From positions 8,434,001 through 8,498,000 of the forward strand of contig NC_088316.1 in assembly GCF_910592395.1 (NCBI RefSeq): DNA of 64,000 bases. Reading direction: 5' to 3'. The DNA comes from Lineus longissimus (lineage: Eukaryota; Nemertea; Pilidiophora; Heteronemertea; Lineidae). The notes below the pieces were generated by a model, which saw only the letters and a program-made list of their open reading frames with translations, did not search any database and was not told the DNA's origin. Shown in pieces: positions 16,090 through 59,119 of the stretch. The position numbers and the translations under genes were made by a program. Numbering within the stretch: position 1 is the stretch's first letter; each line of letters starts with the position of its first letter.

Positions 16090-16262
16090 AAGTCTGCGAA
16101 GTGTTGCAGTCTGCCACCCACGACGCCAACTGTGGGGGCGCCACCTGGAGGCGCAGGAGGAAGGACTAAAAAGTCACTTGCGCTTCCCCCCCGCGACCTT
16201 TCTCTTGGAAGGGACGCTTGGGCTGCCCGGCGCCCCCGCCCCTGCCTGAGGAGCGGTGGCGC

Positions 16263-32855: not shown

Positions 32856-35800
32856 ATGGAGAACTTAGACAGCCATATTAAGGGGGCTCTCTCCAACTTT
32901 CGGAGGGGTTTCCGTGGCGAATTGCTGACAGCCGAGGAAAGGGAGATGTTCAGGGCATTCTGCCACGAACTTGATGGTGTTGCAGGGTGCCTGGCTCAAA
33001 AGTACAGCCCTGACGTGTATGGCCGGGCGGAGGCGAGGAAGCACCAACTGGTGCAGGTAATGAACTGACAGTTGTATTTCTAATTTCCAATTTATACAGA
33101 GACGTCAAAAGCATAGTAGGCCTACGTCAATTAGGTTATTTGTGTCATTCCCGAGCCTAGAAAGGGAAATATTAATCCCAAGCCGACAATTCCCGAAGCC
33201 TTTCGAATGGTAATTTACAAGAGGTGGCGAACACTGACGTCAGCTTCTACATTGTGTTTCAAAAATTGAAAATAACATGTTGTCATAAGCCACTTACGCA
33301 TTGTTTTCTAATCAGCTATATAAACAGTTACTAACTTTGATTAGCCGTGCCCTGGCATGGTGCCAAATTGCAATAATGACATCACCACCTATACCGCCTG
33401 AAATTTGATTGATTGACAAAATTGACGTGGCGGGAAGCGGGAAGCGGGAAGCAGCCCGCCAGAGTGCGCAAAAATTGGTTTGATATAACTGCGGGTTTAG
33501 TACTCACAGGGGGCCTAACGTCCAGGGGGTCAAGGTGCGAACGAAATAACTGAGACTGTACCCTAGACCTTTAGATGGCGCAGGCCCTCTGCGCGGCCTA
33601 CTTGGATTAGAAAGAAATGTTACTATAGAAAGTTATTGCCCAAATTGTTAACCCCCTCCCTCTGTGAAGAAATTGGCGGCCTATGTTTTTTTCTTTCCAT
33701 ATTTTCCATATGTTTTTGTCATTCCAGAGTTATCCTATGGTCGTGGATGAGATCAGGCTCATTCACAAGCAGATCCTCCGCATGATGAGGTCCAATGGTC
33801 AACGGAAGAGTCTCTGAATTGCTCGGTAGGTTCATGAGCTTCATGAGTTCTTTATTCTCAACGGAAATAGAGAAAAACGGGTTTTTTGTGGGGGGGGGGG
33901 CAGGCAACAGGAAAAATGGTGTCTTTTGTCCGCCCCGAATCAATATGGTAGCTGTTTCCCTGGACACCACCACTTAGAATGATAGCTGTATGTATTGCAA
34001 TTCTTGTTTCATTACAGAGATGTACCAAGTTGCGTCTTCGACCAGATCCGGGGCCTGATGACGACAAACTTATTCAGGACCACCTCGACACTTACCATCA
34101 CCAGCGCAGAGAAGGTGGTGATCCTTTTTAACTTCTGGGGCAGGGAAGAGGGTTTAGAAAGGAATAGCCTGCTGAGGAAGACGGACCGACAGGTAAATTG
34201 CATCCCAGGCTCCTCCTGACTAAAATTTATCCCGATGTGTGAATAAAGGTGACAAGGGTTGGAATGCACGAATAACTCCCTACATTCCCATGATGGCCAA
34301 TTGGTGTAGTAAAGATCCTGCTAGCAGGCTTTAATTGATAGAGTATGAACTTAAATGTAATGAGAGACACTCTAATGTCATGATGTAAGTGCATTTGACT
34401 TTAAAGGCCATATATCAAGGTTTTTTGCCATTTTCTGCTGTAAGACGATTTCAAAAGTGTACCCAACACTTTATACAATACAGAAAACCAAATGCAATTA
34501 GCTCCATCCATTTTGAAGATATAGCCAATTATGTGTTTGACAACTTGATTACCTAATCAGGCTAGCAACTGGCTTCTTAGAGCCAGGCGGCGGGTTCAGC
34601 AAAAGTTGTGATGTAGATCAGGTTATCTGTACATGTCATGCAATCATAAAAGCAGGAGGGCCTTAATTAATTATGCACACCTGGAAGTAATGTGTTTCAT
34701 TCACTATGGTGTATTGTGTGGCTCCGAATTGTGTCAAGGATAGCACAAAGAACAATCGAATGACGGATGGGACCCATTTTCATGAATTTCCAAAGCCAGT
34801 TGAACAAGAGAGGAGGAAGCTGTGGATTCGGAAGTGCAAACGTTTGGAGTGTTGGAAGCCTGGGCCTTCGGCCAAACTTTGCAGTGATCACTTTATCGAT
34901 ACGGATTATCACATGAAGCCGGATATCTGCATCCAACTGAATATTAAATGCCACTTGTTAAAAACAGCTGTTCCAACCATGTCAATTGCATTTAATGCCC
35001 GAGGCTGCCAAGGTCGGTTGTTATACATAATGTGTAGGCCCTATTGGGGCCTGTGATACCGCATAGTGTCTTCTTGTGTTCCAGCCATAGCAAGGTGACA
35101 GCGACACAGGTCAGTGTCAGTGACAGCCACTGTCAATGACAGATTATTGTCATCTGACATCTAGGCCTATCTAACATTGCACGGCATTATATCGTCACGT
35201 CAAGATGATTGTGCATAATACCGTCACTTTTTAATAGTAGTTCAGCGTCATGACATAACTGGCGATACAACACTGACGAGGCGAAACAATATTGTGCAAC
35301 ATTAGTCTGTTCAAAAATCATACATGTTATGCATCTGCAACCGTCTATCAATGTCTTCTTTGCTATATCGGCAGGTCTGCCATGCAAATTGATTAACCAC
35401 AAATTCTAATCACTTTCGTCCGAATGATCAATCTCATTATGATCTAGTGATATTAATGGCTCGAACATGTACGGCTCAACGTTTAAATATCCTTCTGTAT
35501 CGACCAAAACATCCTCAAATTCACTGCTCTCACTCTCTGAACTGTATGCGGAAGCCATCTTGCTTTGTTCTGACTGACCTGATCTACGTCATCAAAAAAT
35601 CCCTAGCGGCCACATGTGGAACTAATCTAAAGTTGTGTGTGGTGGGAAATTCAAATAGTTTAAAATTGAAAATTGAAATAACTAAATAATGACTTTATTA
35701 TTAGAATTTTTTTAATGTCTGGGATCTTGTTTTTTTAACCCTCAACATATTTCATGAGTATCAAGCATGTTTTCAAACCTTGATATATGGCCTTTAATCT

Positions 35801-35960
35801 CATGATACTGATTGATTGTTCCTTTTCATTTTAGGGAAATAAGATGAGCATCCTCGTGAATGAGAGCCACCCCTTCACCCTGAAGTACCATAGCAACACC
35901 AAGAGACTCTTCCTCACATCTGGATATGAGGTGTTGAATAAATATGGTATTGCCCAGTAA
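32856..35960 (+). CDS. 187-aa accessory protein of the large element, unknown function
   Basis: Four plus-strand exons: 32856-33056, 33728-33789, 34018-34192 and 35835-35960. The phases agree and sum to 188 codons including TAA. The donor after exon 2 (AG/GTCC) is weak. If it is skipped, a shorter ~96-aa protein ends at about 33818. Residues 1-67 are helical (LLTAEEREMFRAFCHELDGV). The C-terminal half is strand-rich (STLTITSAEKVVILFNFWG, SHPFTLKYHSNTKRLFLTSG). No known domain is recognised. It is convergent with the transposase and near the other terminus, as second genes of two-gene transposons often are. Exons 3 and 4 recur in a broken copy at 6.8-7.3 kb. Confidence 0.6.
34706..35056 (+). 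CDS. THAP-domain protein fragment
   Basis: MVYCVAPNCVKDSTK gives the first two zinc ligands (C-x4-C). A Trp (LWIRKCKRLE), then AKLCSDHF, gives the C-x2-H ligands. KTAVPTM matches the AVPT(I/M) end of THAP domains. The frame stops at 35056 without a catalytic region. THAP domains bind DNA in P-element and Kolobok transposases. It may act on element ends or be a remnant. A splice after AVPT is possible. Confidence 0.8.
   Translation: MVYCVAPNCVKDSTKNNRMTDGTHFHEFPKPVEQERRKLWIRKCKRLECWKPGPSAKLCSDHFIDTDYHMKPDICIQLNIKCHLLKTAVPTMSIAFNARGCQGRLLYIMCRPYWGL
35406..35558 (-). CDS. 50-aa acidic ORF in the Kolobok element
   Basis: A short minus-strand frame starts MASAYSSESESSEFED, passes NVEPYMFEPLIS and ends in HSDESD then TAG. 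The pattern of Ser/Glu runs followed by a PYMFEP-like box resembles the N-terminus of a widespread invertebrate family with a P2X7-intracellular-like domain. That match is from memory and weak. It converges with the THAP frame. The start ATG sits in GAAGCCATCTTGC, a YY1-like word. Confidence 0.4.
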   Translation of the reverse strand: MASAYSSESESSEFEDVLVDTEGYLNVEPYMFEPLISLDHNEIDHSDESD

Positions 35961-37405
35961 AAACGTTTTTGTTGCTATTTCCTTTCTTTGAATGAATAGA
36001 TCTCCAGCAAATGTCTTGTTCCTCCAATTTCCTGGATGCTACCAGAAAAGCAAGGATTGACTTAATTAACAAACTGGGTATCAGGACATCCTCCCCCTCC
36101 CCCCTCCTGGACATTCCCCCTGGACATCTGCCCCCCCTCCCAGACATTAGTTGACCCCCTGGGACATCTCCCCCCTTGAAGGACTTCAGATGAGCCAATA
36201 TCAGTCAGTTTTCATCAGGGGAGCAAATGTCCGAGAATCAACAAACTGCGGAAGAATCAGATTCAAGATAAGAATCTGCTACTGTATCTGGAGTAGGCGG
36301 GGAAATGCATCTCCCCCTAGTTCATTTGCCCCCCCCCCCCCCCGCCCTGAAGGATCTATATCAGACACAGTGATATCCTTTGGGGTGTCAGGGGGCAAAC
36401 ATCCAGTGGGCAGATGTTTAGGGGGCAAATGTCCTAGAAATGCAAATTATAGGAGGCATTTCCAAAGTTCCAGCAATGCTGACATGGATGCAGGGTGATC
36501 ATATGGATTGTGCTGATGTCATCTGGAAAGAAATGTCCCTTGAACATGGCAGTCTTGACATCTGTGAAGTTGAAACCTCTCCTGGTGTTCATTGCCACAT
36601 CACACTAGTGTCAGGCATGTACATGTACAAGAAAGACTATTCAAAACAACACCAAATTTTACGGTTAACACTGATTATAATTGAAAAAGTATAAATTCAA
36701 TCACTCAATAACCAGATAAATTATTTATCATTGACATTCATTAATAATTTGTATGAATGACATTAAGAAGTCGTGGACAACAAAATTGAGCATTCAAAAC
36801 TTGACATTTGGACACGTTTTTCAATCAACCAATTTACAACTGAACTCCTTTCCTTTTGATAATCTATGTAAATCTGGCAACTATGAATCCTTGTACAACA
36901 ATACAACAAATATCATTTTCCTGCATTATACACCAGTGGCTATTGACCAAGGCAGTGCCATTAAAACCTGATGCAGGGCTATCAACGCACATTCTATGGA
37001 AATTTGGCCATTACAGGATATTCCAATCCACCTTTAACTGCTCACAGCTTTTTGCCATTACATGTAGTTACACTAATGTAAAACCGTCAGAGTTACAATG
37101 CATCGTGACATGACGACAGCCAACACTATGTAAACGTTGTTCCCAATCAAGTGCATGAATCTTTAGGAGGTACAATTGTACCAAGTTTTAAGTCAAAAGC
37201 TTCATTATTTGCAAAATGTGCCAATATCGGCCAATTTACACTATTTGACTTCTGCAACCTTGAAAAATAGGTCAAATCAAAAACCCGTATGACATGTCAT
37301 GTGGCTTTATTAGATGTACCTATGATTAAAATTTGGCACTGATCCATGCATTAAGGAGATATAGGACTTTTTGTGTTTACGGTTAACAGGAATGCAAAGG
37401 CCTTT
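35961..37405. other. Non-coding part between the convergent genes
   Basis: 36070-36190 and 36320-36440 are C- or G-rich with repeated GACATCTCCCCC / GGGGGCAAATGTCC words in opposite orientations. 37190-37390 matches the AGGTCAAATCAAAAACCCGT part of the element at 24716-26372. No gene was seen. Confidence 0.45.
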
Positions 37406-40400
37406 CTACCAGACAACATCACGCTGTGCCTTCCTCATTTCTGGTGAGATTCGTCTTTTCTCACAGGTTTCTTCAATCAGCTTCATTGTGGGATGATTGC
37501 AGAATAGACATGCACCCTCAGTGGCTAAACCACACTTACACATGTCAGCTTTCACATTTGGATTGATGTGATATCTATCTCTGGACCTACTCTTCACCAA
37601 ATCTTTCACAACAACATCCATAACATGCTCTTTGAGCCAATACAGATCAAGATATTCATGCCGGAATATCATACCCCACTTGTTCTGGGGGGTACTGAAT
37701 CTCGCATACTCCTTCAATTGTTTGTTCTTGGCCTCCCGTCCTTGCATACTATTGATACCTAGACCAACTCCTAAGCGGTAATAAAGAACCTCCCCATAAA
37801 ATGGAACAACATATCCAAGATGCCAAGTTGTCAAGTTTGCTCCAGTCATCAAAAGAACGTGACATGCATAGTACTGTCGACAAACAGTCTGCAATCGTTG
37901 CAGTTCAAACTGACTGAATTTGATCTTTGAAGCAAGACCAATAGCTTCGCGCACAACCGTGCAGGCAAAGTGAAATACCAGGGGCCTTATTCATGAAGCC
38001 TTCTTAGGGCCTAGTAAGCAGTTACGTATTACTAGGTCGTTATTAGCGAATTACGCGGTATTCACGAAGCACCCGTAACTTCAATCTATTTCGTAAGTCG
38101 TTACTAGTGTTACGTGAGGTGTTCGGGCTTCTTAGCGTGTCATCAGTCCATGCTTAGATAGTTGGACACATTTTTACACAAGGAGCATGGCTGCGGCGTT
38201 GATTGTGTTGGAAAATTTGGAAGCAAGGCGGGCTTTACGACGGCAGCGTGTGTTTAGAGATCGTCTACAACCGCTCGACGTCTATGATGACGTAGATTTG
38301 TACAGACGATACCGGATGACTCGGCCGGTCCTTCTCGAAGTTATCGACCTGTTGCAGGATGACATTGCCCGTATACGCTGCGCTCGCACGCCGTTCCAGC
38401 AACTCTCCAAGTTTGCGTTGCGCTTAGATATTTTGCTACTGGCAGTTTGCAGTTGGACAATGGAGACATGTCAAATGGCTTGAGTCAACCTACGATATCA
38501 AGGATTATTACCAGAGTTGCAACTGCTTTGCAGGGTAAAGCAAAACAGTTCATAACATTTCCTCGAACAGCTGCTGAGCAAGAACGTCAGAAGGAAGGAT
38601 TTTCTACAGAACGCCATCGGATTCCGAACGTTATTGGCTGCGTAGATGGATCCCTTATTCCGATCAAATGTCCATCCGTAAACGAGAATGCATACGTTTG
38701 CAGGAAACAGTGGCATGCCATTAATGTGCAGGGGATTTGTACTTATGATTTGAAATTTTCAAATATAGTAGCCCGATGGCCAGGTGCCACTCATGATGCG
38801 TTTATCTGGTCCAACTGCAATTTAAAGGTGAAGATGGAACGCGGCCTGAATGATGGAGGATACTTGCTCGGTGACAGTGCCTACCCACTTAGACCCTGTC
38901 TCATGACCCAAGTCTCCCGCCCAGCAGATGCAGCGGACAGACAATACAACGTTCACCACAGGCGAGTCCGAAGCATCATTGAACGAACCTTTGGAAGATG
39001 GAAAAACCGATGGAGGTGCTTGCACAAAGAACGTAAATTATGTCCTTATTGGTGAATCAGGAGAGATCGCCAGTTTCTAGACACCGACAGCACCTGTCTG
39101 CAAATGGCTATTATAGCCATTCTCAGACAGTGCTGCAGCATTTCACCCCATAACATTGCTGCATAGACTGCTTTGCAGTACAAGTTCCATTTCGATTTCG
39201 ACTGACTTTCCCCATTCTCATTTCTTTAATAAGATGCCTTTTTTGCAGGTGGAACTCTTCGATTAAGCCCCGAGAAGTGTTGCTCGGTGATCATTGCAAC
39301 ATCTGTGCTACATAACATCTGTGAAAACCATGGCCTCCCTGTCCCAAACGACCCACCAGCCAATGTGGATAATCCCGATGATGACGTCAACAATAGACCA
39401 ATCCTCGATGTCGATGTCGAAGAAAGGGCACGCTTGATAGATCAGCATTTCAGGAATATGTAGTATGTATTTAAAACAGAACTTTATTTCCAATTAACCC
39501 AAACATTTTAATTGATGTGTACAACCAAAATGGTGGTACATGTAACAAGAGACGTTTTCAACATCATGTTACAATCAACAACGATAAACAGTAAGGTTGT
39601 AGAGCATTTGATTACTGGCGAGACTGCCAAACTACAATTCCAACGATCTTCTTTCATCAACAAATAAACATCATGTTTGTACAGAACAATGTACTGTGAT
39701 CAAGGTATAAATTCATACCAACAACCAACACGATTTTGATGAAAGCACAATCTTATCAGTTATTCCTTACTTCACTATCTATCTAACAAACAATGTAGCA
39801 GTTATACAGCAACAACATCACTTTAAAATTGCGTGATATATGTAGGTCACTCTCCTTTGGCCATTTTTTCAAGTACAGAGAATACCGATGAACTGTATGA
39901 GGCGCCAAACGTTCCAAAATTATTTAGCTTTTTTAGGTGTCGAAAAACATGTTATATAGCTAAATATTCAAAGATATAGATAAATACATATTTCTGAAAT
40001 GTGCATTTATAAATTGTTACTTTTGATCATAAATCTTGAATTATCAGTTTAACTTTCTATATAGGATTTATGCATTTTGTACACAGAAAACTCAAGATAT
40101 ATCTAAATATGAGAACCTAAATCTAAATACGAGAATGGTGCGACCTATTTTGTATATTTAGGATTTAGAGAAGCAGGTGTTGAAAAAACTCTGTATTTAG
40201 CTATATGCTAAATATGCCTAACGTTCCAAAATTATTTAGCATTTTAAGGTGTCGAAAAACATGTTATATAGCTAAATATTCAACATATCCGATTTCGAAA
40301 CGATGGATATATAAAATCCTTTGCAGTAGTCGTTATATATCTGTCTTTTAAGCTAAAATTCAGCTCATATTTAGCGAAATAACATGTTTTTCGACACCTA

Positions 40401-43400
40401 AAAAAGCTAAATAATTATGGAACGTTTGGCGCGCCTCATAACGCCTGATATACGATTTATGATAAAATATCATAAAAACGACGTATATAGGTACAAAAAC
40501 CAGCATTTAGCTAAATCGGAAATCTAAATCTAAATCTCGTTTCTAAATCAAGGGAATGTTCACAGTTTTCTGTATTTAGGATTTAAAGTTTCGATTTAGA
40601 AAATAAAGCTGAATTTAGCTAAAAAGACAGATATATAAAGACTACTGCAAAGGATTTATAGATCAATCGTTTCGAAATCGGATATGTTGAATATTTAGCT
40701 ATATAACATGTTTTTCGACACCTAAAAAAGCTAAATAATTTTGGAACATTTGGCGCCTCATAGACCTGGACTTGTACTCCTTTGGTTTTGAGCCAGTTTT
40801 CTGGGATTCGCTGGTTTCCGTAACAGCATCCACTAGTACCTCCAATAGCCATACTGCCTTTTTTGCGAGATGAACCTTTGTTTCTTCCAGATGAAGCCGT
40901 TGTTCTTCCACGTCAAGTCGCTTGCTCTCGATTTTGACCCGTTCCTTCTCCACATCAATTAGTTCAACGGCATGTGAAAGCTTCTTATCTGCGGGAGACA
41001 AACCAGTTGAAGACGCCTTGGAAGAGCCAGCAGTGGGACGACAGCTCTTGGGTTGTCGGGCAGGACTTGGCGGCGGTGAAGGGGATCGGGTGTCATCTTC
41101 TGAGCTGCTATCGTTCGGGCGCGTGACGGTTGCTGTAACCTTACGAATTCTCTGGAAAATACATTTGATAGACTTAAATGCAAAAAGCCATTAAACATGA
41201 GTGAGGTCTTAGTATGTCTTTAGTTGTTATTTACTTCCTTCTCATATAGAAGGCCAGTACTGAAACGGGCACGTCAGGAGATACGTTTTCTTTCCTAATA
41301 ACGACACAAGCAAGTGAGAAAAAGCATTGCACAGATCGTTGTGCAGCCACCTGGAAAGTTGCGATCTTCCCTTATCACTGCTTATGCCTCCAGTAATCAA
41401 AAACCTATTTACCTCGGGTGATTTCCGCAATTCAACGGTATGGAATGTATGCAATGACTTCTTTGCTGCGAGAGACAAACCAGTTGAAGACGCCTTGGAA
41501 GAGCCAGCAGTGGGACGACAGCTCTTGGGTTGTCGGACAGGACTTGGCGGCGGAGAAGGTGAATGGATGTAATCTTCTGAGCTGCTATCGTTCGGGCGCG
41601 TGACGGTTGCTGTAACCTTACGAATTCTCTGGAAAATACATTTGATAGAATTAAGTATTGAATGCTATGTAAGGATGAAATATCTCGTCAAGAGCCAAGC
41701 GCCTAAGATGACACTTTTGAATCTGTAGACAAATCGGGCGAAATGTAATGCAGGAAACTGGAGCGCCCGCAGACGACCAACCTACCTTCGATTTCTGAAG
41801 TGAGAGTGACGCATTCTGATCGAAATAAGAAATTTCGTCATCATCGGCTTCTGTGACAGACGGGGAAAATGGGTATTGCTGGTTCATGTCATCTTCAGGT
41901 AGGTCCAGCTCTTCTGTGTCCATACCAGTAGCGATTCCTTGTATCATTTCGACACCGATTAGGCCTACGATCCTTTGCTCGAGTTGCGTCAACTGGGACA
42001 CATCATCGCCAAGGGGTTTGTTCCCGGTCCGCTTGGTCAGTACATTGATTTTTGCAGCCTACTGTTTTGCCTTCGATTTCAGGTCATGCCATTTATGGTG
42101 AACTGCTTCGGTCGTTCTCCGGACGCTTGCCACACTGTTGATCTTAAGGGTTATTTCTTTCCACGTGTCGGACTTCCGCTTCAGCGTAATGACATCCGAA
42201 AACTTGCTGCTGATCACGGACCACTTCGATTCCACGAGATCAACTAACTTTATAATTTCATTTGGGGAAAAATTCACACCCCGTTTCCTCTTTCCTTCCT
42301 CGGGTGGTGGGACAACGGTCTTCTTTCCTTCCTCGGGTGGTGGGACAATGGTCTTCCTCTTCTTATTGGTTTTCTCCATGATGTTGTCAGGGTGGCGAAT
42401 ATCCATAAAATGATGGTAAGCACGTCCAATTACTGTATAAATACTCGATGCCCCTATTACAAACAGTCAATGAGGTGAGCTCAAGTGGATTACGTAACAA
42501 TTCTATACAGATCACCTCAAGTGCGTACCTGATAATATTTCCCTACGAAGGGTTTAATAAGTAATACGGTAATAAATCGATGATAATGCTTTGTGAATAA
42601 GACGTAGTTACTAAAGTCTTACTACGAGCCACGTAAATCGTTATTAGTAACAATTTTACGAAGGCTTCATGAATAAGGCCCCAGGAGTCTGAATTGTCTA
42701 TCAGGAGTCCCATTTTGTCCCACAGCCTTGATCAAGTAGGGGTAACCCTGGCAAAATTTGAAGGAGTCTTCTCCTGTAAACCTAACACCAAGAAGCCTTG
42801 TGCCACAGGAACCTTTTGACAGAGCAGCACAATTCTCTGTAAACCACCTTCTGACCTGTATGAAAATACGACCAGCGTGAACTTTATCCCGAAGACAAAC
42901 CAGGTATCTGCCAAAGGGAGATTCTCTGAAAGCATTATTCTTAAAATCAATGCCACCCCTGATGACCTTATCATCAGTTAGTATTAGGGCTTCAGTCAAA
43001 ATAGCCTGGTGAAGCTGAGCACAGATGTTATTTTTCAGATGAAGAGAATCGATATAACAGTGCTCCGAGTAAATGCCAAGTGTAGGTACGTGTTCTTGCC
43101 TAGAATGCAAGGATGCAATGTATTTAGTCACTACATCACGCCTGCTGGCCTCCTGTTTTTTCAAGGCCACTTTTTTTACCATGGCTAGTCGATCAAGATA
43201 CGACCAAGGTTTCCAGGTGGATTCACTGCCACCTAAACTTCCGTCAAGCTTTGACAGGTCATCTTTTCGCACATTGCCATAACTGGATGGATAGGCAGCT
43301 GCATTGCTGAGCTCGCCACAAGCAGTGGCTATCCACTTGCAGTCACCCGGAACAAGTTCAAGAGTAAACCTGACCACAGTGGATCCAATCATGAACACTT

Positions 43401-46400
43401 TCTTCTCAATGGACTCCATGTTTGAAGCTATTTCGGCAACATAGTTGAGAATAGAAGCATGGTCCTCAGGCACATCAGCCCCGAACAACAAAAACTGGTA
43501 CATGCAGCTATTAACCTTCTCAGGCAAATTCAGAAAAGACAATAGAACAGACGTGTGCGTTTTCAACTTCGAGGCAGGAGCACCATCTGCCCCAACAGAT
43601 ATCGAAAAATGGCCTCTTTCCTTCTTCAGCCAATTCAAAGATTGCCCATTGACCTGTAACTTTTCATCTATCTCTAAATAAACTGATGCTATCTTCAGGA
43701 GGGTGTCTTCGAGATTCCGGTAGCAGCCGGAAACACCTGCAACTTCATGAACCTGAAGCTCTTTACAAATACTTTTCAACTGATGAACAAGTTCCTGATA
43801 TGTCATCAGCTCATCACCACTACATTCGAAACTGAGATCTGCCTGCCGCAATGAAGTGTATTTTCGACTGGATATTGAACCATTACGATACATGTATTTG
43901 ACACACCGGACCACAATTGCTTCCGTTACCCGTTCCTTATGCTTTGTTACTCTGCCTTCCTTGGGTCTCGATAAATTTGAATAGTACTTTTGAATGGCTC
44001 CCTTCCCTGCTTTTTTAACCAACGTCAGCCACAATCCATCCTGCACACTTTTGGAATCAGCTCCATGAATTGGTTCCAATGCCTTGCATGTTTCGTCAAC
44101 TCGTTTAGTCATGGTTGTGTTGCTCAGGTAGCATCTCGCAGAGTCGTTTGGCAGAACACGGGTCGGGTTCGTCACACACCGTAGTTTCGATTTCATCTCT
44201 ACCTGAACATATTGGTCTAGTTTAACAGGGGGTACAAATTCAGCTCTCAGTCTTTCCTTCCATTCGATCTGAAAGTGAAACCAAACAAAATTAGCACATA
44301 CAGATAAATGCATCTTTCAAGAACTGAGTGCCAAAGAACTGAAGGCCTAATGTATTCGATGCGGATTACCGGTTGTTTCCATTTTTCCGCAACAACCCAT
44401 TGGGTGTCCCAAGGGATGAAAAATGTTGCTAAGAGGGCAATATAAACGTTTGTTCAGGATACCAGTTCTTGATTGAGGCTCAAAACTGGTAATGGTTGCC
44501 TGTACGTATCAGAAAGATTGTATAGGCCTACACTGCTCCTCAAGGCTGGCTTTGCAACAAAATTATATGTGACAAGGTAACAAATTTCAGTGTAACATAA
44601 TATCTCAGACTGAGATACCCGTACAGTGCTGCTGTCTTTTGTTGTAGAATTACTGTTAAGATAACATACCTCAGCAGTCAAATCACGAATACACTCTTCC
44701 TTTTCCCTGATGTCATCATCCAGCTTCTCAACCTGGCTTTGCACCACTTTCATGGCACTGGCATGGGCCATGTCAAGTTTTGCCCCTTTCTGTGCACGCC
44801 TATACATTCCGATATCCCAGCCAGTTCCGGTAGCTTTTTTCTGGAACCGAAAGTGATGAAAGGTCAGCATACGGTAATAAATTGTGTTCAGCCGGTGGAT
44901 GAAATGAACAATGTAATGAAATGGACAACTTTAGACAGCCCAGGTTGCTGTGTCATATGACTTTGACATCTGTGAACACATGTGAACCAAAAATGCAGTG
45001 CTCACTTTATCCCTTTAAAATTGAATATATTACAGGTACAATCAAATCAAGCTGAAATGATGACAGGGGAATATTCAGCGTACTGGTACTCTTGCTATAA
45101 GAGGCTAAATAAAAGAAAGAATGGTCAGACTGTGATTTTAAGAAGTGACTTCAGAGGGCATTGAAAGCAGTTTGTGCGACATCAGCTACACAGGTCTGGT
45201 ATAATTAGCCTTGGACAGGAGAAGAATATTTCTTGGGGGAAACAGTACATGTACATCATTTCTATAATACCTTTGCTGGTTTCCTGCTCTTCAGTTTATC
45301 ATACTCCACAGTGTAGAAGCCAAAGACAGTGTCACAGTCAACCCGAATCTGACTTGCTGGATCTCTGTTGTACTTCACACAATTATCTCTGACGAGGAGC
45401 ATGTCTGTATGAAAGTTCTCAATGTCTTTATACTGACCACTCTGAAATGGAAGTGATAGGATTTAGTGATCTGCAAGTGAGAAGTTGTGAGTTTCCAATA
45501 TGATGCAGCCCACCCAGCTTAAAAACACTACTGTTCGAGGCCAACAGAGAATGCCAGAGGACACAACGTCATTACATCATGGAGCAACCAGATTGAAGCT
45601 GTGACGTCATTCAGCAGCAGAACATCGTGAGAGGCAGATGCCAGTCAACCACAGCCACCCTTATGAGGCCTAGAGGAATCAACCACACCACTTGGGGGAG
45701 TGGGCAATGATTTGACTAGCATTTTCGACCAGTCTACAATTTGGTGACTCTGAGGGGGTCTTAGCATTCACTTCTTTATGGGTTGAATTTCCCAAACATT
45801 GTTTGAGCTACCACAGTATTATCCAAATGCTACCCACCTTTATTTTCCCTTTGATGGTTGAAAAATCCATTGGGTGCTGAATCAAATTGAAGTAACCTTG
45901 TGCATCATCTTTATTCACTGAAACAGGATGATAGCAATAAAGAAATAATGGACATTATAAGCTACACTACAGGAGGTGCCAGGGCATCTCACAAAATTGC
46001 AAAGCTGCGTGGTGGTGGAAGTGCAAGATTAACTTGTCGTCTTCAGTGTGTGTATTAGAAGTGAGCTCTGATCATCTCATTCCTTCAAAGCAGTGTGCAG
46101 TATCTATCACAGTGTCAGAAAATACCAGTTGTCTTTTGTGGACATCTGAGTACAGACTGTCAGGTGTTTATCCACAATACATACATGATGTTTCTGGGTA
46201 GCCAATCACATAATATCTTCAAACACCTGTAGGCAACTGAGTCAAAAACCTAAGATTGAATAAGATTCATAATATCATGCCCGATTTCTCCGGCCTGATT
46301 TGTGATATTTACCTGGTAATCTAAACCAAACTGATGGGTCAATGTTAATTCTATTCATTCTTCCTCCTCTGTAGTGGACAACCCTCTGGAGCAATCCCAG

Positions 46401-46418
46401 ACACTCCGACTCCATCAT
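37406..46418 (-). CDS. Bromodomain-coiled coil-transposase, split by Harbinger
   Basis: Predicted exons on the minus strand: 46432-46313 (ATG at 46418), 45917-45838, 45441-45271, 44840-44670, 44268-42682, and after the Harbinger insertion 37978-37406. All splice sites are AG/GT and all phases agree, giving 896 codons with no other break. Residues ~1-118 form a bromodomain: helix Z LLQRVVHY, ZA-loop WFRLPV and HPMDFSTIKGKI, then DNCVKYN with the acetyl-lysine-binding Asn. Residues ~119-175 are a charged coiled coil. The large exon has SVGADGAPASK, ELVPGDCKWIA, GELSNAA and DSLHLKNN. The last has GREAKNKQLKEYAR and a Cys/His cluster (CKCG, CLFCNH). These Asp/Glu boxes suggest an RNase-H-fold DDE transposase, with catalytic residues unproved. 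A 5' non-coding exon may lie at about 46738-46800. Confidence 0.72.
38187..39463 (+). pseudogene. Harbinger DDE transposase
   Basis: Exon 1 is 38187-39032 and exon 2 is 39249-39463; the donor splits a CGT codon. The catalytic triad is visible: NVIGCVDGSLIPIKCP (D1), LLGDSAYPLRPC (D2) and RSIIERTFGRWKNRWRCL (E). SLQLDNGDMSNG precedes it, and VLHNICENHGLPVP marks the C-terminus. A 1-nt shift is needed near 38400, where the frame passes from the N-terminal part to LQVCVALRYFATG, so the copy is inactive. The protein acts with the Myb-like partner encoded on the opposite strand. Confidence 0.85.
39898..40760. mobile_element. TA-flanked foldback element nested in Harbinger
   Basis: TIRs TGAGGCGCCAAACGTTCC / GGAACATTTGGCGCCTCA have TA on each side (39896-39897 and 40761-40762). 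The subterminal block (TTAGCTTTTTTAGGTGTCG, AACATGTTATATAGC) occurs four times, twice in each orientation (about 39920, 40230, 40385 and 40700). This makes it a composite of two head-to-tail foldbacks. It interrupts the end of the Myb-like gene. Confidence 0.8.
40763..42379 (-). pseudogene. Harbinger Myb/SANT-like protein
   Basis: Exon 1 (42379-41786) starts MEKTNKKRKTI, has a repeated VPPPEEGK motif and a Myb/SANT-like domain (FSPNEIIKLVDLVESKW to EAVHHKWHDLKSKAKQ). It then hits TAG at 42061-42059, in frame with the rest (LTQLEQRIVGLIGVEM). Exon 2 (41628-41413) and exon 3 (from 41151) both begin RIRKVTATVTRPNDSSSED, an exon duplication. Exon 3 continues in a coiled coil (KERVKIESKRLDVEEQRLHL) and is cut by a foldback element at 40760. 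Harbinger Myb-like partners bind element ends and bring the transposase. The stop makes this copy defective. Confidence 0.75.
40985..41645 (-). repeat. Exon duplication in the Harbinger element
   Basis: About 165 bp at 40992-41166 and 41471-41643 are nearly identical in the same orientation (GACGCCTTGGAAGAGCCAGC, TCGTTCGGGCGCGTGACGGT). Each carries the same exon start and acceptor. A segmental duplication of ~480 bp is the simplest cause. Confidence 0.75.
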
Positions 46419-46432
46419 GGAGGCTGTTGCCA

Positions 46433-47991
46433 CTGAAATAAACACCAAAGATTGTTAATAAGGCGTGCACAAATATTGACACAGCATAAACTCTTTTCAA
46501 TTGCAGACCTCTACTAAAATTAAAACTAATTTAGAAAAGTGTTTCTTGAACTGAAAGTGGGTGTTTTGAGAAAACAAAATCAAAATGCCATCAAAAATAT
46601 CTATGTCATGGATGTCTGATTAATAGAAATAGTAATTCTGAAACAGGACCATTTGATCCCAACTCTAAAGAGAACAAGTATATGCTGCCTATTGTTTCAT
46701 TTCTTTATACTTACTCAGACTGAAAGCTGTTGAAATCTACAACAGGGAAAACCAACTGTGGACAGCAGTTCCAAAGGGAGAATGACTCCCATTTGGATTT
46801 GTAAGTACTCTGAAATGAAATGAAAATCATGATCCAGTTGTGGTAACGGTACAAGCGTGAATGCCTTTAAAATTCTTGACACAATGGACTTAACTACCGG
46901 AGAAATCATACTCCCTGTTAAACTAGACCAATCTTTTCAGGAGAGAAAAGGCATCATCAAATAGTTATCTTACTCTGGGATCCCCCTTAATTTTGCCCGT
47001 GAATACCCTGGGTAAATCATGCCGATTGTGCCCTCGATTTCTTTGGAAAATGACCCACTCTTCGGCAATCCTGCCTCCTGGCGGCGTCGCCCATGTGGGT
47101 CTACCCCTACCCCTACCCCTCATTCCTGCACCCAGAGTGGCCATCCAGCCTAACCTTGCCCCTACCCCCAATCTTAACCCCCTACCACCTCCCTAACCCT
47201 CCGATATAGACTGCCATAACCCTAGGCTCTAGCCGCAACAGTACAGTAGCCATTGAGATGTACAGAAAATGTACAGGCCCAGTGCACTCAGGCCTCTGTG
47301 CATTTCAAGGTCATGATAATTTCTGTTGTCTATTAAAATAACATGTGCCCACACTAATGATTTGGCCCTTGGTAGACTAGATTTATGATGCAGCCTATGA
47401 GGAACACAAACACAGGGCAGGAAGAGCTGCAATTTTGTACAGACATACATTTTTGTAAATAGCCAAGGTCAACTGGAGCCCAAGGGCCTAAATCCGCCAT
47501 TATGGGCGTTGGGCCCATGCGCCATGACCCACCAAAGCTGAAATTATAGGTATCAAATTTTCTTCCTATTTCTATTTTGAAGATCTCAATGCAGTGCTCA
47601 CCGAAATTCCGCACAGTGTAAATTGAATACACCAAACACAACACCTTTTTTTTACATTTCGGATTGGTGTTAGAATAATCTAACTAGCTGCTCATAAACT
47701 TTGACATTTATCACTTCCGTTGAGCCAAAAATGTTCTCTTACCATGCCTAAAAGTTGATGAAATTCGGGATAAAATTCACAGAAAATCGTTTTTCATTTC
47801 TCTATCCGCCATTCTGATCTTGTTGAGGTCGAAGGCCGCTGGGTGGCAGCAGCTCCCGGTTAGGGCCAGGCAGGAAAAGACTAAAATCAATGGATTTTTA
47901 ACCGGCTTCAAAAATTGACCTCCGTCCAGTGGCGCTCCACGCGGGGCGTGACAGAACTGATGCTAAGCGGTTGCTTGATCTCAACGGTTTC
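46433..47991. other. 5' region of the large element
   Basis: A possible 5' non-coding exon lies at about 46738-46800 (AG acceptor, GTAAGT donor). CCCCTAC is repeated three times near 47105. No other coding exon was found between the transposase start and the terminal repeat. Confidence 0.4.
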
Positions 47992-48002
47992 GAGGCGCTG
48001 TG

Positions 48003-48700
48003 AGACAACAAATCCAAGTAGCTTTCCAACCAGCTCGCACCACATACTGTACTGCTGCATGCACTGTCCAATACAGCACAATTGTTGGCCTCTATTCCCA
48101 GTGCTGAAATGCTTCGCTTGTTAAATCCTGTAAATAATACCGCATGTTCTTCATTTTCCTCAGCTCCTACATCATTAACTACATGTACCTTCTTTAAGTT
48201 CTCCCAACTGTCTGGACAATCCATCAAGAAATGCAGGAAAGAACCACAGGATGTGCAGGTCAATGGTTGGCCATCAGCTCCTGATGGATTGACACGTCTC
48301 TTTCCACCGCTCTCTCCCGACCTGAATCTGGACTGCCCTCTTTGGTCTCTCCATTGATTACCACCACCACCACCAACTGTAGCTGTCCCACCGTTCCTCT
48401 TGTCACCACGATAATTCCCTCTATCACCTGAGTATCTGCTGTCACCAAAAGGCTTTTTAGTGAAATTGGTCACCAATGTTGGTTCTTCAACTTGTTCCAC
48501 CTTGATAGCTCCTCCTGATCCTGTAGCTTTACCACCACTACAGTCACCACCCATGAACTTCTTTAAGGATTTTTGTGCCTGCTCGTAAAGCGAATCTTTT
48601 TTGTCATAGTCCATTCCTGTGAGAACCAACATTTTTTCCTTACTAGATAGACCTGCACGACGTAGCAGCTTGAAAGCTAATATCTCAGAAGGTAACACCA
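48003..48700 (-). pseudogene. Copia gag C-terminus and protease start
   Basis: It begins VLPSEILAFKLLRRAGLSS and continues through a glycine/arginine-rich segment and a zinc knuckle with CTSCGSFLHFLMDCP (C-x2-C-x4-H-x4-C spacing). It ends in protease with the active-site box VLDSACSSTVCGASWLESYL. The coding frame is cut after DLLS by the terminal inverted repeat of the 15.9-kb element. Confidence 0.8.
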
Positions 48701-50015
48701 ATTTTTATGGTTCCTGGTTCTTTCAGAACAGGAACCATATTGTGTTTGGTCATGGTGTCTGTCTGTGTGTGTGTGTGTCTGTGTGTCTGTGTGTCTGTGT
48801 GTCTGTGTGTGTGTGTGTCTGTCCAGTCTTATGACTGTCACAGCTCAGTTAAAATGAGGGTTAGAGGTCTAGAAACAGTTCCTACCCCTAGGTTTGTGGA
48901 CACTAGCAATCTAATGAGCCCATCATTGTCAACTTACGACACGGGGATCATGGTGAAATTGACATTTTGAGATGTGAGATTTTGTCTGTCACACTTTTCA
49001 GATGTGAATATCTCTGTCCCTATTCAAGTTAGAAGTTTGGAAACAAGGTCTACCCTAGGTTATTGATGTGCCTGATTTCAATGAGTGCATCAAATTCAAT
49101 CTCAGTTATCAGGGTCATGGTGATATTGATATCGAATTTGATATTTTGAGATATCTTGACATCTGAGTAAGTTAGCAATGTGCAACCAAGTCTAGGTAAT
49201 GTGTAGTTACCAAAGAGTTAAATGACATGAAAATGTACAGTGTCAGGCATTTGGATCATTAAGATATCATGAGATTTTCATATATCAATTTTGATAATTT
49301 GAACTATCTCGGTCTGTGGGAGGAGTAGAGTCATGGAACCTTCACCTATGCCCAGGTTATTGAGGTTGCCCATTCAGGTTATGCAATGACCTTGAAGGTC
49401 AGAGGTCAAGGTCAAGGTCAAATCACCTGCCAATGAAACCACTGATATTTCAACTGTTTAGTCTATGACACGGGAACAACATGCCAATCTATATCTTCTG
49501 TGATGCTTTGAAGGTCAAACGTCAAGGGCAAGGTCGAAAGTTATGAAGCAGGCATCCTCTCCTATCTCGGTCTGTCGAAGGGGTTGAGTTGTGGAGCCTT
49601 AACCTATGCCTATGATAGGTGGCAGTTTAGATTATGCAGTGACTTTGAAGGTTTGAGGTCAAGATCTGATCACCTTGAAACATAAAACTGTTGCTATTTT
49701 TGAGTGTATATCTTGTGATATTTGAACATGTTTTGGAGGTGCTTTACAAGAAATGTGTATGATGACGTCACAGAATGACGAGAGCATAGCATATTTTCGA
49801 TACTCCATGCTACCAGATCAAAATAAAACGAAATCCTTAGTCTCTGGCTTACAGAGATGCTGAACATGAGATTAACCGGTTCCGCATCGTGCCACACCGT
49901 TTTCAGTGTGAACACTTAATACGAATTAAGGTTTAAATTCAATTCGAATTAAAACTAGTGTCAACAGAACTTTATTTCAACATTCAGCACATCGGGAACC
50001 ATCAGACATTTACAA
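48701..50015. mobile_element. ~1.3-kb insert in Copia gag, type unknown
   Basis: The gag frame stops at about 50015 and resumes at about 48700. ATGGTTCC lies near each end in inverted orientation. Inside are a (GT)n tract (48765-48820) and repeated AAGGTCA words (49390-49670) with ATCTCGGTCTGT occurring twice. Borders are uncertain by a few bases and no clean target duplication was found. No coding sequence. Confidence 0.55.
48763..48822. repeat. (GT)n / GTCT microsatellite
   Basis: About 60 bp of GTGTGTCT repeats. Confidence 0.9.
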
Positions 50016-50358
50016 TGTCATCTTGTTTTACTTTGATCCTCCCATACTTTTGATCAAAATTCGCTATGTATTGATCAATGGACTCCGATGCACTGCGCTT
50101 ATAATCTTCGAAATCTTCAAACTTCTGCAGACTGTCCTCTAATTCATCTTTTCCAAGATGTTTGTCGATGTATGTGATCAATTTTTGCAAACCAGTCTCA
50201 CAATTCAACTCCTCCACTGTAAACTCTTCAAATACTTTCTCTCTTATTTTAATGCCATCAGTTTCTGGCAACCCCAATGCAATCACTACGCCTTGTTATT
50301 GAGCTCTTTGATAAATTGATCGTAGCTCTTTTCTTTTTTGAGTATTGAGGGGGATTAA
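50016..50358 (-). pseudogene. Copia gag N-terminal part
   Basis: It reads SYDQFIKELNN, then in a shifted frame VIALGLPETDGIKIREKV and DYKRSASESIDQYIANFDQK, a typical helical Copia gag. The start codon lies beyond the MITE at 51850-51848 (MSTRI). A shift in an A6 run near 50328 and stop codons near 50287 show decay. The 3' end is broken by the ~1.3-kb insert at about 48.70-50.01 kb. Confidence 0.7.
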
Positions 50359-51834
50359 TGCCGCGTTCACACTAGCGTTTTAATTCGCATTTAAACCGAA
50401 TTTATTGCTTAATCCGGATTAAGTGTTCAGACTAGAGGCCCCTTAATGCGGATTATATGCGAATTAACAAATACGGTTTTAACTCTTTCAGTGCCAAGGA
50501 CGTACATGTACGTCCTAAATATTAAGGTATTTTAGTTCCTCCAGACGACACCAGATGTCCCCAGCTACTCAAATGTGGTTCATATGGTTTCTCTGGCCTG
50601 GGGCGTCCAAATTGAATAATTTTTTCGACTGAGAGGGTGGGGTGGGGTTTGCCACCCCTCATTTTAGGTGAAAAATGGTGAAAATCGGCCAAAAATACCA
50701 CTCCCTCAAACAAATTTAGAACATAATCCTAGTATGCCCCTACTTATTACTGCTGTTTTATTGAAACAGGAGGTAAAGACAAAGGTTTTGAAGAATTTTG
50801 ATGAGTGTATCTCAATTATTTTTGTGAGATTTTGGGTAGTGACAATGCCCAAAAATGCCCAAATCCTGAGCACTGAAAGAGTTAAATGCGTATTAATTAA
50901 TTCGCACTTACTTAATCCGCATCAACATTTGCGGTATGAACGCCGTAGTGTGCATTAACGTGATTTACCGGGTAGTACAGCGTACGGGCATGCGCATTGC
51001 TAACTAGATCACTTCCTTCCGTTTTTTCCACTGGAGATCAGCACGAGGTTTCATCAGTCAATTCCAAAATTTCTGCCCCGATTTACATGATGAGTGATAA
51101 CAGGTGATCATGGACGCAAAAACCATAGCGAACCCTTCATTTTCACGACTATTTGCGTTTAACTAATTCAGCAGAGACAAGACCACAATTGATTTTTTAA
51201 GCCTTTTAGCAGTTAAATTGTCAATGTTTGACCACGACGCATCAAAGAATGCGTCAAGTAGTGAAACTGAACTTCGGATATGATATACGGGTTAGTCTTG
51301 CGAGTAACTGGTGCGATTTAAATTGGTGATTGACCACGGAAATTTTTTTTTAATCGACAAATTAGACAGACTTTGATATTTCCATTCTTTTCAGCCAACT
51401 GGCAGAAAAAACTCAAAACATGCCCCCTATTACCCAATTAGCAAAATTCGAAATTAATTTTTTCATCAAATAATTTCTTTATATCTGTAGACTTGCCACA
51501 GCAAATATTTTTTCAATACCTCTCCAAATATGTACTTGAGAGTAAAAAACATGCACTCGTCTAATTGATAGGCCTCGACCCTCCAACCTATCAATATTCA
51601 TTAGTGGTCTTGTCTCAAGCAGATTATCATTTATGGGCGCAGCCATCTTGGAATGAATGACCTTGACCGCTAACTAGTGCAGTTTGATTCGTCTTTTGTA
51701 GATGGCGCTGTGGTAAATACGGACTAGTGAGATTCGTGTCTGAACACGGCTAGTTCGGAATGAGGGCTTAATCCGCATTCCGAAGTGCGGACTACGGAGT
51801 ACGGTTTAAATCCGCATCTAGTGTGAACGCAGCA
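50359..51834. mobile_element. Harbinger-type MITE in Copia gag
   Basis: TIRs TGCCGCGTTCACACTAG and TGCTGCGTTCACACTAG (complement), followed by subterminal CGCATTTAAACCG-like blocks. TAA is duplicated (50356-50358 and 51835-51837), the TWA target of PIF/Harbinger. The insertion lies five codons after the Copia gag ATG. There is no transposase. Confidence 0.8.
50483..50881. mobile_element. 399-bp TTAA element nested in the MITE
   Basis: TIRs CTCTTTCAGTGCC / complement with TTAA on both sides (50479-50482 and 50882-50885). This is piggyBac/Kolobok-type target use. No coding sequence. Confidence 0.8.
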
Positions 51835-51850
51835 TAATTCTGGTTGACAT

Positions 51851-53670
51851 TTTGCACAGAGTCAGTAAAAGAAAAACAATGATAAAAAAACAGCTCACTT
51901 ACTTCGAATTATCCTCTCCAAAAACCTCAAAGAAGCTCCATAAAAGCTTCCAAACTCCACTAGGCTATTACGTCAGGTTAAATCCAGATAGAATAAGAAA
52001 AGAATCCTTTGAATCCTCACTGAAAACTTCGTCAAAGTTTGACTCAAACAGCCGTCCACTCACCAAAAATCCTCCGCACTCACTGAATTATGCACATCGA
52101 AATGTACATCGCTACACTGTACGCAAAACGCCAACGAAAGATTTCACCACGAGTTGAACTATCCTGCCTATTTAATCCTGCTTATTTAACACCTCATTTA
52201 TTTTCGATGAAAAGAATGGTTAATGGTTGGAGTTAGCACCAGCATCAAAATCAAGGTCATGGTTGTGTTAGCTGTGGCATATGAGAAGGAAAGGTCATGG
52301 TTTGGGTTAGCTATAGCACGAAAAGGCTGGGTAATTGGGGTTAGCAATAGTATCAAAATCAAAGGTCATGGTTAGAGATAGCTCTGCCTCTAGCCAATTT
52401 CCACGCTAAGTCAGCCGGCCCACCTTACTGACTTTGCCTCAAAACACCGTGATAATCTATTCCAGGTATAGGAGATCTATACTACTCGTCATGAAACAAA
52501 ATCGATTCAGTAAAGGGTTATGGTTGGGATTAGCAAAATAGAATGAAAAGGAAGGGTAATGATGGTTGAGGTTAGTGCGCCACTATAAGGTGTCAGAAGG
52601 ACTCAAGATGGTTTGGGGGTTCCACTCCATCGCCTCGAGATAAGGGTCTCAGAAGGACTTACTGGGGGTGGGGGGGGGGGGGTGGGCGTTCCCCCCAATG
52701 CACTGGTTAACTGTCGAACAGTTGTGTGACTTCACTAGAGGACCACAGGTTATACTTGGCAAAGACTGGCGGGCCTTTAGTGGTTTCCGCTGCCACCGAT
52801 GCCCCTAGTATACCACCAGAGGCCCACCGATCGTTCCGATATGGTAATCTTTTGCATATAAAACAGGCAACGAATATAAAGTTCATAATTATTTCAAGAA
52901 GACATTTTCCCAACAAATACAGGAAATTTTCAGTTTTACTGAATTGAGGTTATCACGCCCGTCAGTAAGGTTGGCCGGTTAGCCTAATCCAAGTAGGCCC
53001 CGCGTGATGGCGCTGAGGCGGCTGCTGCCAGGGGCCTAATTCTCAACGATTTTATTTTTGTAATCCTTGACCAGAATTATGGAGTGGCAGGATCTTCGGT
53101 CAGATTTGTTTGGTTTTTTTTATGACCCAAAAATTGGTAATAGTTGATACTTCACAGGAGTTGTCTGTTTCAGTCATAAATAGCATTCCACGATGAGGTC
53201 ACTGCAGTTGCTGCCCTCTATTTCCCCATCGCTGAATTACAGGCAATGTCGGACAAACATTCGGTTTCGTAATGGATTCAGGCTTTCTAACTAGGGCAGT
53301 TAGATTCAATCTGGCACATGTTCGAGTGTTGGAAATACTACATAATTGTTCTGAATATTTCTCTCTCTGACTCTATGGTATCATTCATGCTAAAAACAAT
53401 GCAGGGTCGAAGATAATTGACTTTGAAATAAGCTCAAATGCGTAGAAATAAGTGTCGATGTCCGACTGTCACGTGACTAAAACGTCATCAATATCTTATT
53501 CAAATGACCTTGTGAGCTATGAATAGTAACTTCGCGGAATGCTATTATACAGATTGGATTGTAATGTAAGTGCAGGAATGGACTAGCAGATTTAATTCAA
53601 TAAAATATTCAATGTTTGAAAATCGACGACCAATCTCTGTAATATACGTTGTCTCTACTTATAAGCTCCA
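51851..53670. other. Copia 5' leader and AT-rich intergenic DNA
   Basis: 51851-52160 should be the Copia leader or 5' LTR, but I found no match to the 3' side. 52200-52390 has three diverged ~80-bp units with AAAGGTCATGGTT and GGGTTAGC. 52545-52710 carries a partial copy of the CCCCAATGCACTG-ended repeat. No gene. Confidence 0.4.
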
Positions 53671-56929: not shown

Positions 56930-59119
56930 CATACGGTGGCCCATTAGGGACATCATGTTTTTTTTTAGATTCAAATACGATTTTTTTTTCTCGAATTTTC
57001 TCCACGGAATTAAGTATTTTCTCCACGGAATTAAGTATTTTCTCCACGGAAATAAATACTTTTCTCCACGGAAATAACATTTATCTCCACGGAAATAACA
57101 TTTATCTCCACGGAAATAAATACTTTTCTCCACGGAAATAAATATTTTTCTCCACGGAAATAACATTTATCTCCACGGAAATAAATACTTTTCTCCACGG
57201 AAATAAATACTTTTCTCCACGGAAATAACATTTATCTCCACGGAAATAACATTTATCTCCACGGAAATAAATACTTTTCTCCACGGAAATAAATATTTTT
57301 CTCCACGGAAATAACATTTATCTCCACGGAAATAAATACTTTTCTCCACGGAAATAAATACTTTTCTCCACGGAAATAACATTTATCTCCACGGAAATAA
57401 ATACTTTTCTCCACGGAAATAAATACTTTTCTCCACGGAAATAACATTTATCTCCACGGAAATAACATTTATCTCCACGGAAATAAATACTTTTCTCCAC
57501 GGAAATAAATACTTTTCTCCACGGAATTAAGTATTTTCTCCGCGGAAATAACATTTATCTCCACGGAAATAAATACTTTTCTCCACGGAAATAAATACTT
57601 TTCTCCACGGAATTAAGTATTTTCTCCGCGGAAATAAATAATTGATTCCGCTGATATGATTGGTCCTGCATTTTAGAGGACGAGGTCAAGGTGAAACTAT
57701 TAACCCTTAAACCCCAACCTTGCGGTAGGCTCGGGAACCAAGCTGTACAGGCGCTGCCCGCTGGAACACGAGGCCGCTTGTCAATCCCGTTTGACATTGT
57801 CAGATCTGACTATACGTGTATAGTGTTGGCATGAAGACTGTGGAAGATGTAAGTAACACGATGATTGTCAGATTTGATACGTTTTGAATCATAAAAATGC
57901 AGTTGGTAGCATCTTTGTAGAGTGGCCTAGTATCAGTGAAGAAAACGGTACGTGGAGACCCACTGCCGATGTTATGTATAGCTAGCTACTGCGCGCGATA
58001 GCTAGCTATACATAACATCGGCAGTGGGTCTCCACGTACCGTTTTCTTCACTGATACTAGGCCACTCTACAAAGATGCTACCAACTGCATTTTTATGATT
58101 CAAAACGTATCAAATCTGACAATCATCGTGTTACTTACATCTTCCACAGTCTTCATGCCAACACTATACACGTATAGTCAGATCTGACAATGTCAAACGG
58201 GATTGACAAGCGGCCTCGTGTTCCAGCGGGCAGCGCCTGTACAGCTTGGTTCCCGAGCCTACCGCAAGGTTGGGGTTTAAGGGTTAATAGTTTCACCTTG
58301 ACCTCGTCCTCTAAAATGCAGGACCAATCATATCAGCGGAATCAATTATTTATTTCCGCGGAGAAAATACTTAATTCCGTGGAGAAAAGTATTTATTTCC
58401 GTGGAGAAAAGTATTTATTTCCGTGGAGATAAATGTTATTTCCGCGGAGAAAATACTTAATTCCGTGGAGAAAAGTATTTATTTCCGTGGAGAAAAGTAT
58501 TTATTTCCGTGGAGATAAATGTTATTTCCGCGGAGAAAATACTTAATTCCGTGGAGAAAAGTATTTATTTCCGTGGAGAAAAGTATTTATTTCCGTGGAG
58601 ATAAATGTTATTTCCGCGGAGAAAATACTTAATTCCGTGGAGAAAAGTATTTATTTCCGTGGAGAAAAGTATTTATTTCCGTGGAGATAAATGTTATTTC
58701 CGTGGAGATAAATGTTATTTCCGTGGAGATAAATGTTATTTCCGTGGAGAAAAGTATTTATTTCCGTGGAGAAAAGTATTTATTTCCGTGGAGATAAATG
58801 TTATTTCCGTGGAGATAAATGTTATTTCCGTGGAGAAAAGTATTTATTTCCGTGGAGATAAATGTTATTTCCGTGGAGATAAATGTTATTTCCGTGGAGA
58901 AAAGTATTTATTTCCGTGGAGAAAAGTATTTATTTCCGTGGAGATAAATGTTATTTCCGTGGAGATAAATGTTATTTCCGTGGAGAAAAGTATTTATTTC
59001 CGTGGAGAAAATACTTAATTCCGTGGAGAAAATACTTAATTCCGTGGAGAAAATTCGAGAAAAAAAAATCGTATTTGAATCTAAAAAAAAACATGATGTC
59101 CCTAATGGGCCACCGTATG
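56930..59119. repeat. 2.19-kb near-perfect palindrome with tandem arms
   Basis: The palindrome is centred on a 10-nt loop at 57989-57998 between GCTAGCTA sequences. The inner ~345 bp of each arm appears identical by eye. The outer arms are arrays of ~22-bp units (GGAAATAAATACTTTTCTCC and GGAAATAACATTTATCTCC with AC) from 57001 to 57640 on the left and 58345 to 59052 on the right. They differ in length and unit order. The outermost ~70 bp (ATACGGTGGCCCATTAGGG) again match. GTTC follows and precedes the ends as a possible 4-bp target duplication. Open frames here are repeat translations. Confidence 0.9.

Follow-up and report, generated by a model that had tools for sequence, protein, structure and literature searches.

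RAG1 is the enzyme that shuffles antibody genes. It is given a histone reader by RAG2, and the PHD finger of sea-urchin RAG2L is described as binding methylated H3K4 (PMC7204232). Transib transposases are described as carrying no other identifiable domain, and Chapaev transposases, assigned to the Transib superfamily by Kapitonov and Koonin, have a Chapa domain and, in two subgroups, a RING (PMC4411706). A PHD finger has been reported in Rehavkus (MULE-like) transposases; in the passages on Rehavkus the words histone and chromatin are absent and histone binding is unmentioned (PMC6446971). Other epigenetic proteins taken up by transposons include the TET/JBP dioxygenases (PMC12730594); with the Rehavkus PHD finger, they provide precedents for the capture of such domains. 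What RAG requires a histone reader for, and whether that reader is a relic of ancestral target choice, is treated here as an open question. The locus described here is a minus-strand gene within a 64,000-nucleotide stretch of the nemertean Lineus longissimus (contig NC_088316.1, positions 8,434,001 to 8,498,000; hereafter the window). With confidence somewhat better than even, it is best explained as a broken copy of a nemertean DNA-transposon gene encoding a bromodomain, a helix, a RAG1/Transib-type DDE core and a CxC..CxxC motif.

The rebuilt model comprised six coding segments in a single frame, encoding 895 amino acids and a stop, and all four introns were GT..AG (Table 1). A protein search with this model, a check suggested in a preliminary description of the window made from the letters alone, returned the annotated L. 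longissimus protein LOC135493817 (P0001; 689 amino acids). The two were identical over 685 of the 689 residues of P0001, the match starting at Met21 of the model and spanning all four introns, so that all four junctions agreed with an independent annotation. P0001 begins at Met21, within exon 1, and ends inside a PIF/Harbinger element that interrupts exon 5, its final four residues diverging from the model. A possible upstream exon (46714-46811, minus strand) had good splice-like ends; its frame was out of phase with exon 1, and it could therefore only be untranslated. Just upstream of the gene, 40 nucleotides (46902-46941, plus strand) matched early exon 5 coding sequence (44202-44241, minus strand) in inverted orientation at 85% identity and are perhaps a fragment of a related copy.

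Exons 1-3 matched the Pfam Bromodomain family (PF00439) at 67.8 bits (cut-off 21.7) over profile positions 12-82 of 84, and the open reading frame (ORF) holding exon 3 alone matched it at E 4.7e-6. Asn87, in the motif VKYN, occupies the presumed acetyl-lysine position and aligned with the YN of TAF1 and polybromo. The three in-phase exons previously read as a bromodomain with its acetyl-lysine Asn were thus confirmed, and the domain is a probable reader of histone acetylation. No description of a bromodomain on a transposase was found among the open-licence PMC papers listed, judged by titles and the starts of abstracts.

No Pfam model fitted the large exon 5. Its predicted fold was that of an RNase H transposase carrying a large helical insertion, arranged as in RAG1 and Transib, the RAG1-like part spanning 465 residues. 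In a second L. longissimus protein, P0047 (LOC135503337), the candidate active site was formed by D353 in the first long strand, D434 just after the strand at 422-431, and E731 in the helix at 728-741. Among family rows with a residue at these positions, the D, D and E were conserved in 48 of 48, 47 of 47 and 35 of 35, respectively; the equivalents in the window protein are D404, D485 and E787. The structure prediction recommended earlier as a check for an RNase H fold with D-D-E returned that fold, with all three residues conserved. On the predicted structure, the core has the RAG1/Transib fold and probably works like the RAG1/Transib enzymes.

Relatives numbered 37 proteins in a first search and 25 new proteins in a second, giving 62 with P0001 included. 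Species represented among 12 of the 62 were Lineus longissimus (n=6), Ptychodera flava, Porites lobata, Porites evermanni, Desmophyllum pertusum, Exaiptasia diaphana and Nematostella vectensis. A bromodomain was present in two of the 62 proteins, P0001 and P0047. P0047 lies on another contig and has the same order of bromodomain, helix and core, collinear with P0001. The two were identical at 280 of 667 aligned positions (42%), including 33 of 59 in the bromodomain, 53 of 105 in the RNase H domain and 22 of 59 in the coiled coil. Since an unselected stretch would hardly be recognisable at such divergence, the bromodomain has probably been kept by selection. The joining of a bromodomain to a DDE transposase-like protein, as first proposed for this locus, was upheld by the independent gene model, the predicted fold and this second, diverged Lineus locus. 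In a tree of 48 rows, five Lineus proteins and P0002 formed one clade (100/100), within which P0047 branched outside the other five (81/95); P0001 was a long branch, which makes its place less sure. The N-terminus of relatives P0034, P0036 and P0052 is made up of a short stretch, the basic motif RFxIG and a helix, which together are the counterpart of exon 4; exon 4 corresponds to the native N-terminus of bromodomain-less relatives. In another relative, P0060, the frame continued into a reverse transcriptase (RVT_1 2.7e-29), probably an inserted retroelement.

Several results weigh against reading the locus as a bromodomain-bearing gene with a RAG1-type core. A profile search with the family found no RAG1 chain, and hhalign of the family against a RAG1 core gave only 0.2-0.3%; even a RAG1 query reached HzTransib with no better than E 0.0066, so that tests by sequence have little power over such a distance. 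In RAG1, a pair of Cys and a pair of His around the insertion make up a zinc site. No conserved Cys pair was found after the second D in the family, in which one conserved His (710) lies approximately 20 residues before the Glu. Given neither a sequence link nor a Cys pair, the claim made here is of a RAG1/Transib fold, not of membership. The P0047 bromodomain scored 20.3 bits, just under the Pfam cut-off of 21.7, and the P0047 gene model begins mid-domain and lacks a few residues before the Asn. A bromodomain was seen in none of the other 60 of the 62 proteins, the Lineus models P0003, P0058 and P0061 included. The Pfam scan (E<=1) covered 48 of the 62, two of them with a bromodomain; P0060 and P0062 were also scanned and had none; for the other 12 precomputed Pfam annotation served (the sequence of P0033 was also read), and this annotation misses P0047, so that a weak bromodomain could be overlooked in those 12. 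Finally, P0062 is an ELP3 gene model (ELP3_N 3.6e-31, Radical_SAM 2.2e-16) containing a stretch 99% identical to P0003; joins between host and family exons do occur in the annotation of this genome. Copies lacking the bromodomain had been named beforehand as evidence that would count against the fusion: most relatives do lack one, which tells against it, and the early-branching P0047 has one, which tells for it. The simplest reading of the tree is a single bromodomain gain at the base of the clade, followed by loss or incomplete models in P0003, P0058 and P0061. The bromodomain looks like a feature of one lineage, not of the whole family.

The core could instead belong to another superfamily without a solved structure (Chapaev, Kolobok or Dada) that appears RAG1-like to a fold search, which we consider rather unlikely. 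This identity would accord with the placement of Chapaev in the Transib superfamily (PMC4411706) and with an invariant His of the family, H534, in an [E/D]PLH-type motif (46 of 46). It would rename the core only, and is compatible with the explanation of the locus as a broken transposon gene.

The gene had been thought to lie wholly inside a proved transposon. The reverse was found: the element with terminal inverted repeats (TIRs) and a CAG target site duplication (TSD) lies inside the gene. It is an ordinary PIF/Harbinger element, with a DDE_Tnp_4 transposase, a Myb accessory ORF, TIRs and a 3-bp TSD, and it breaks up the bromodomain gene instead of carrying it. The insertion divides E787 from the rest of the core, and the window copy therefore has no unbroken exon from which the complete enzyme could be produced. 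In the second part of exon 5, the window copy deviated at three of 25 highly conserved columns, two of these being His invariant in 31 of 31 other rows, and P0053 deviated as often across the same columns; the deviations hint that the window copy is decaying. The Harbinger transposase was also considered as the previously described DDE region and was rejected, lying on the opposite strand and inside the insertion; hhalign of the exon-5 family against it gave <0.5%, marking it as a separate protein. The N-terminal (38136-38483, plus strand) and catalytic (38363-39055, plus strand) parts of the Harbinger transposase were in different frames, so that this Harbinger copy has probably been disrupted or else is spliced. 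Inside the element, at 39896-40762, a group of inverted repeats 44-100 nucleotides long probably represents a further nested palindromic element.

No enclosing TIR element stood out among 25 of 62 inverted-repeat pairs at 30-56 kb, and none was present among the best 25 pairs found with seeds of 11 between 28-37.4 kb and 46.4-62 kb, of which the best long-range pair (33591-33610 / 52984-53003) had no matching TSD. Paired 14-mers with a TSD between 34000-37400 and 46420-50500 numbered eight, each with two mismatches and a TSD of only 2 bp, and none was above the background of six control region pairs (6 to 78 pairs each). No ends with heptamers like those of recombination signal sequences and a 5-bp TSD were found between 25-37.4 kb and 46.4-60 kb around this one gene copy. 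These negative results cover the stretches searched, and short or distant ends could escape. The stretch in P0062, as expected of a recent family copy that landed in ELP3 and into which the annotation read on, is a sign of mobility. Three 90%-identity clusters of relatives held 142, 192 and 302 member sequences, which fits a mobile, multi-copy family, though these numbers may partly reflect many assemblies.

The locus might also represent a host gene family, in which a RAG1-fold transposase was domesticated together with a bromodomain in nemerteans and now provides non-mobile chromatin or DNA regulators. In line with this, both bromodomain copies, which are old and have diverged to 42% identity, keep their reading frames, and the searches around the window copy turned up no element ends. 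However, a Harbinger insertion in a coding exon means that the window copy does not serve as an intact, indispensable gene, the closest models of the clade include the one copied at 99% identity into ELP3, and the core retains its D, D and E; we regard domestication as improbable. Slightly less probable still is an annotation artefact, in which the bromodomain exons of a neighbouring host gene were run on into a transposon exon by reader and pipeline alike: P0062 shows ELP3 exons joined to family exons, unspliced exon 3 meets a stop soon past its donor, and the protein begins with the bromodomain, the possible exon at 46811-46714 being out of phase, but a diverged second locus, on another contig, repeats the order, with agreement at 33 of 59 bromodomain residues; the same wrong join, with one bromodomain type at one point, is unlikely to have been made twice independently; and a misjoin of the P0062 type does not easily explain two loci with the same junction and diverged sequence.

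Table 1. Coordinates of the bromodomain gene and of the nested element, in window positions.
Feature	Position	Strand	Description
Coding exon 1	46313..46418	-	Met1 to bromodomain start; contains Met21; GT donor
Coding exon 2	45838..45917	-	Bromodomain, ..HPMDFST..; AG/GT sites
Coding exon 3	45271..45441	-	Remainder of bromodomain; presumed acetyl-lysine Asn87, codon starting 45369
Coding exon 4	44670..44840	-	GWDIGMYRRA motif and long helix, probably coiled coil
Coding exon 5, first part	42682..44268	-	N-terminal lobe, RNase H-like domain, most of helical insertion
D404 codon	43587-43585	-	In exon 5, first part
D485 codon	43344-43342	-	In exon 5, first part
Coding exon 5, second part	37406..37978	-	Separated by Harbinger insertion; end of insertion domain, stop
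E787 codon	37735-37733	-	In exon 5, second part
C-terminal CxC..CxxC	37540-37499	-	In exon 5, second part
PIF/Harbinger element	37982..42681		Interrupts exon 5; restored target site
Inverted ends of Harbinger element	37978-38006 / 42657-42685		93% complementary
TSD CAG, left copy	37979..37981
TSD CAG, right copy	42682..42684
Harbinger transposase ORF (DDE_Tnp_4)	38363..39055	+	E 1.4e-29
Harbinger accessory ORF (Myb_DNA-bind_5)	42059..42466	-	E 1.6e-18

Elsewhere in the window, two large tandem arrays of one unit (TTTTCTCCACGGAAATAA..) at 56996-57640 and 58347-59054, in opposite orientation and approximately 700 nucleotides apart, are possibly the arms of one element. The minus-strand region at 13209-16173 was GC-rich with long ORFs and one weak RT_RNaseH match (2.6e-4, under the cut-off), and is probably a retroelement.

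In its intact form, the protein would act in the manner of RAG1/Transib enzymes, cutting its own element at the ends. The bromodomain, which the nemertean clade may have acquired a single time, close to its base, would bind acetylated histone tails and keep the transposase on active chromatin; this hold could help the transposase to reach its donor or choose its target, in parallel with the RAG2 PHD finger, which links RAG1 to methylated H3K4. We propose, tentatively, that a nemertean lineage of RAG1-fold transposases gained an acetylation reader within the transposase, separately from the PHD finger of RAG2. If so, a RAG1-fold transposase with its own acetyl-lysine reader is a natural second experiment on the role of the histone reader in RAG; steering by histone marks would have arisen more than once among RAG1-like enzymes, with a different reader each time, and RAG1-like transposases may have a repeated need for it. 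The core would, in addition, extend the RAG1/Transib fold by a branch that sequence profiles miss and that occurs in cnidarians, a hemichordate and nemerteans. The fold result points to a place near RAG1 for a transposase-like animal family that no Pfam model covers, and this placement would widen the set for tracing V(D)J recombination.

Among known systems, the locus resembles Rehavkus in that the transposase includes a domain from a class frequently involved in reading chromatin, and differs from it in both superfamily and domain. Unlike Transib, TransibSU and Chapaev (the last compared by description only), it has a bromodomain in one lineage, and no sequence link to them was found; no RING was among 25 of the 26 Pfam families listed for 48 family members. 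With RAG1 and RAG1L it shares the predicted fold, the order and rough spacing of D-D-E and the large helical insertion, and it differs from them in having no detectable sequence similarity and no conserved Cys pair at the zinc site. No kelch or PHD match that would mark a RAG2L neighbour was found in 10 of the 61 window ORFs of at least 105 amino acids, and introns could hide one. Like the RAG1-RAG2 complex, with its RAG2 PHD finger, the system includes a probable histone reader; there the PHD finger is in a partner protein, whereas here the bromodomain is in the same chain.
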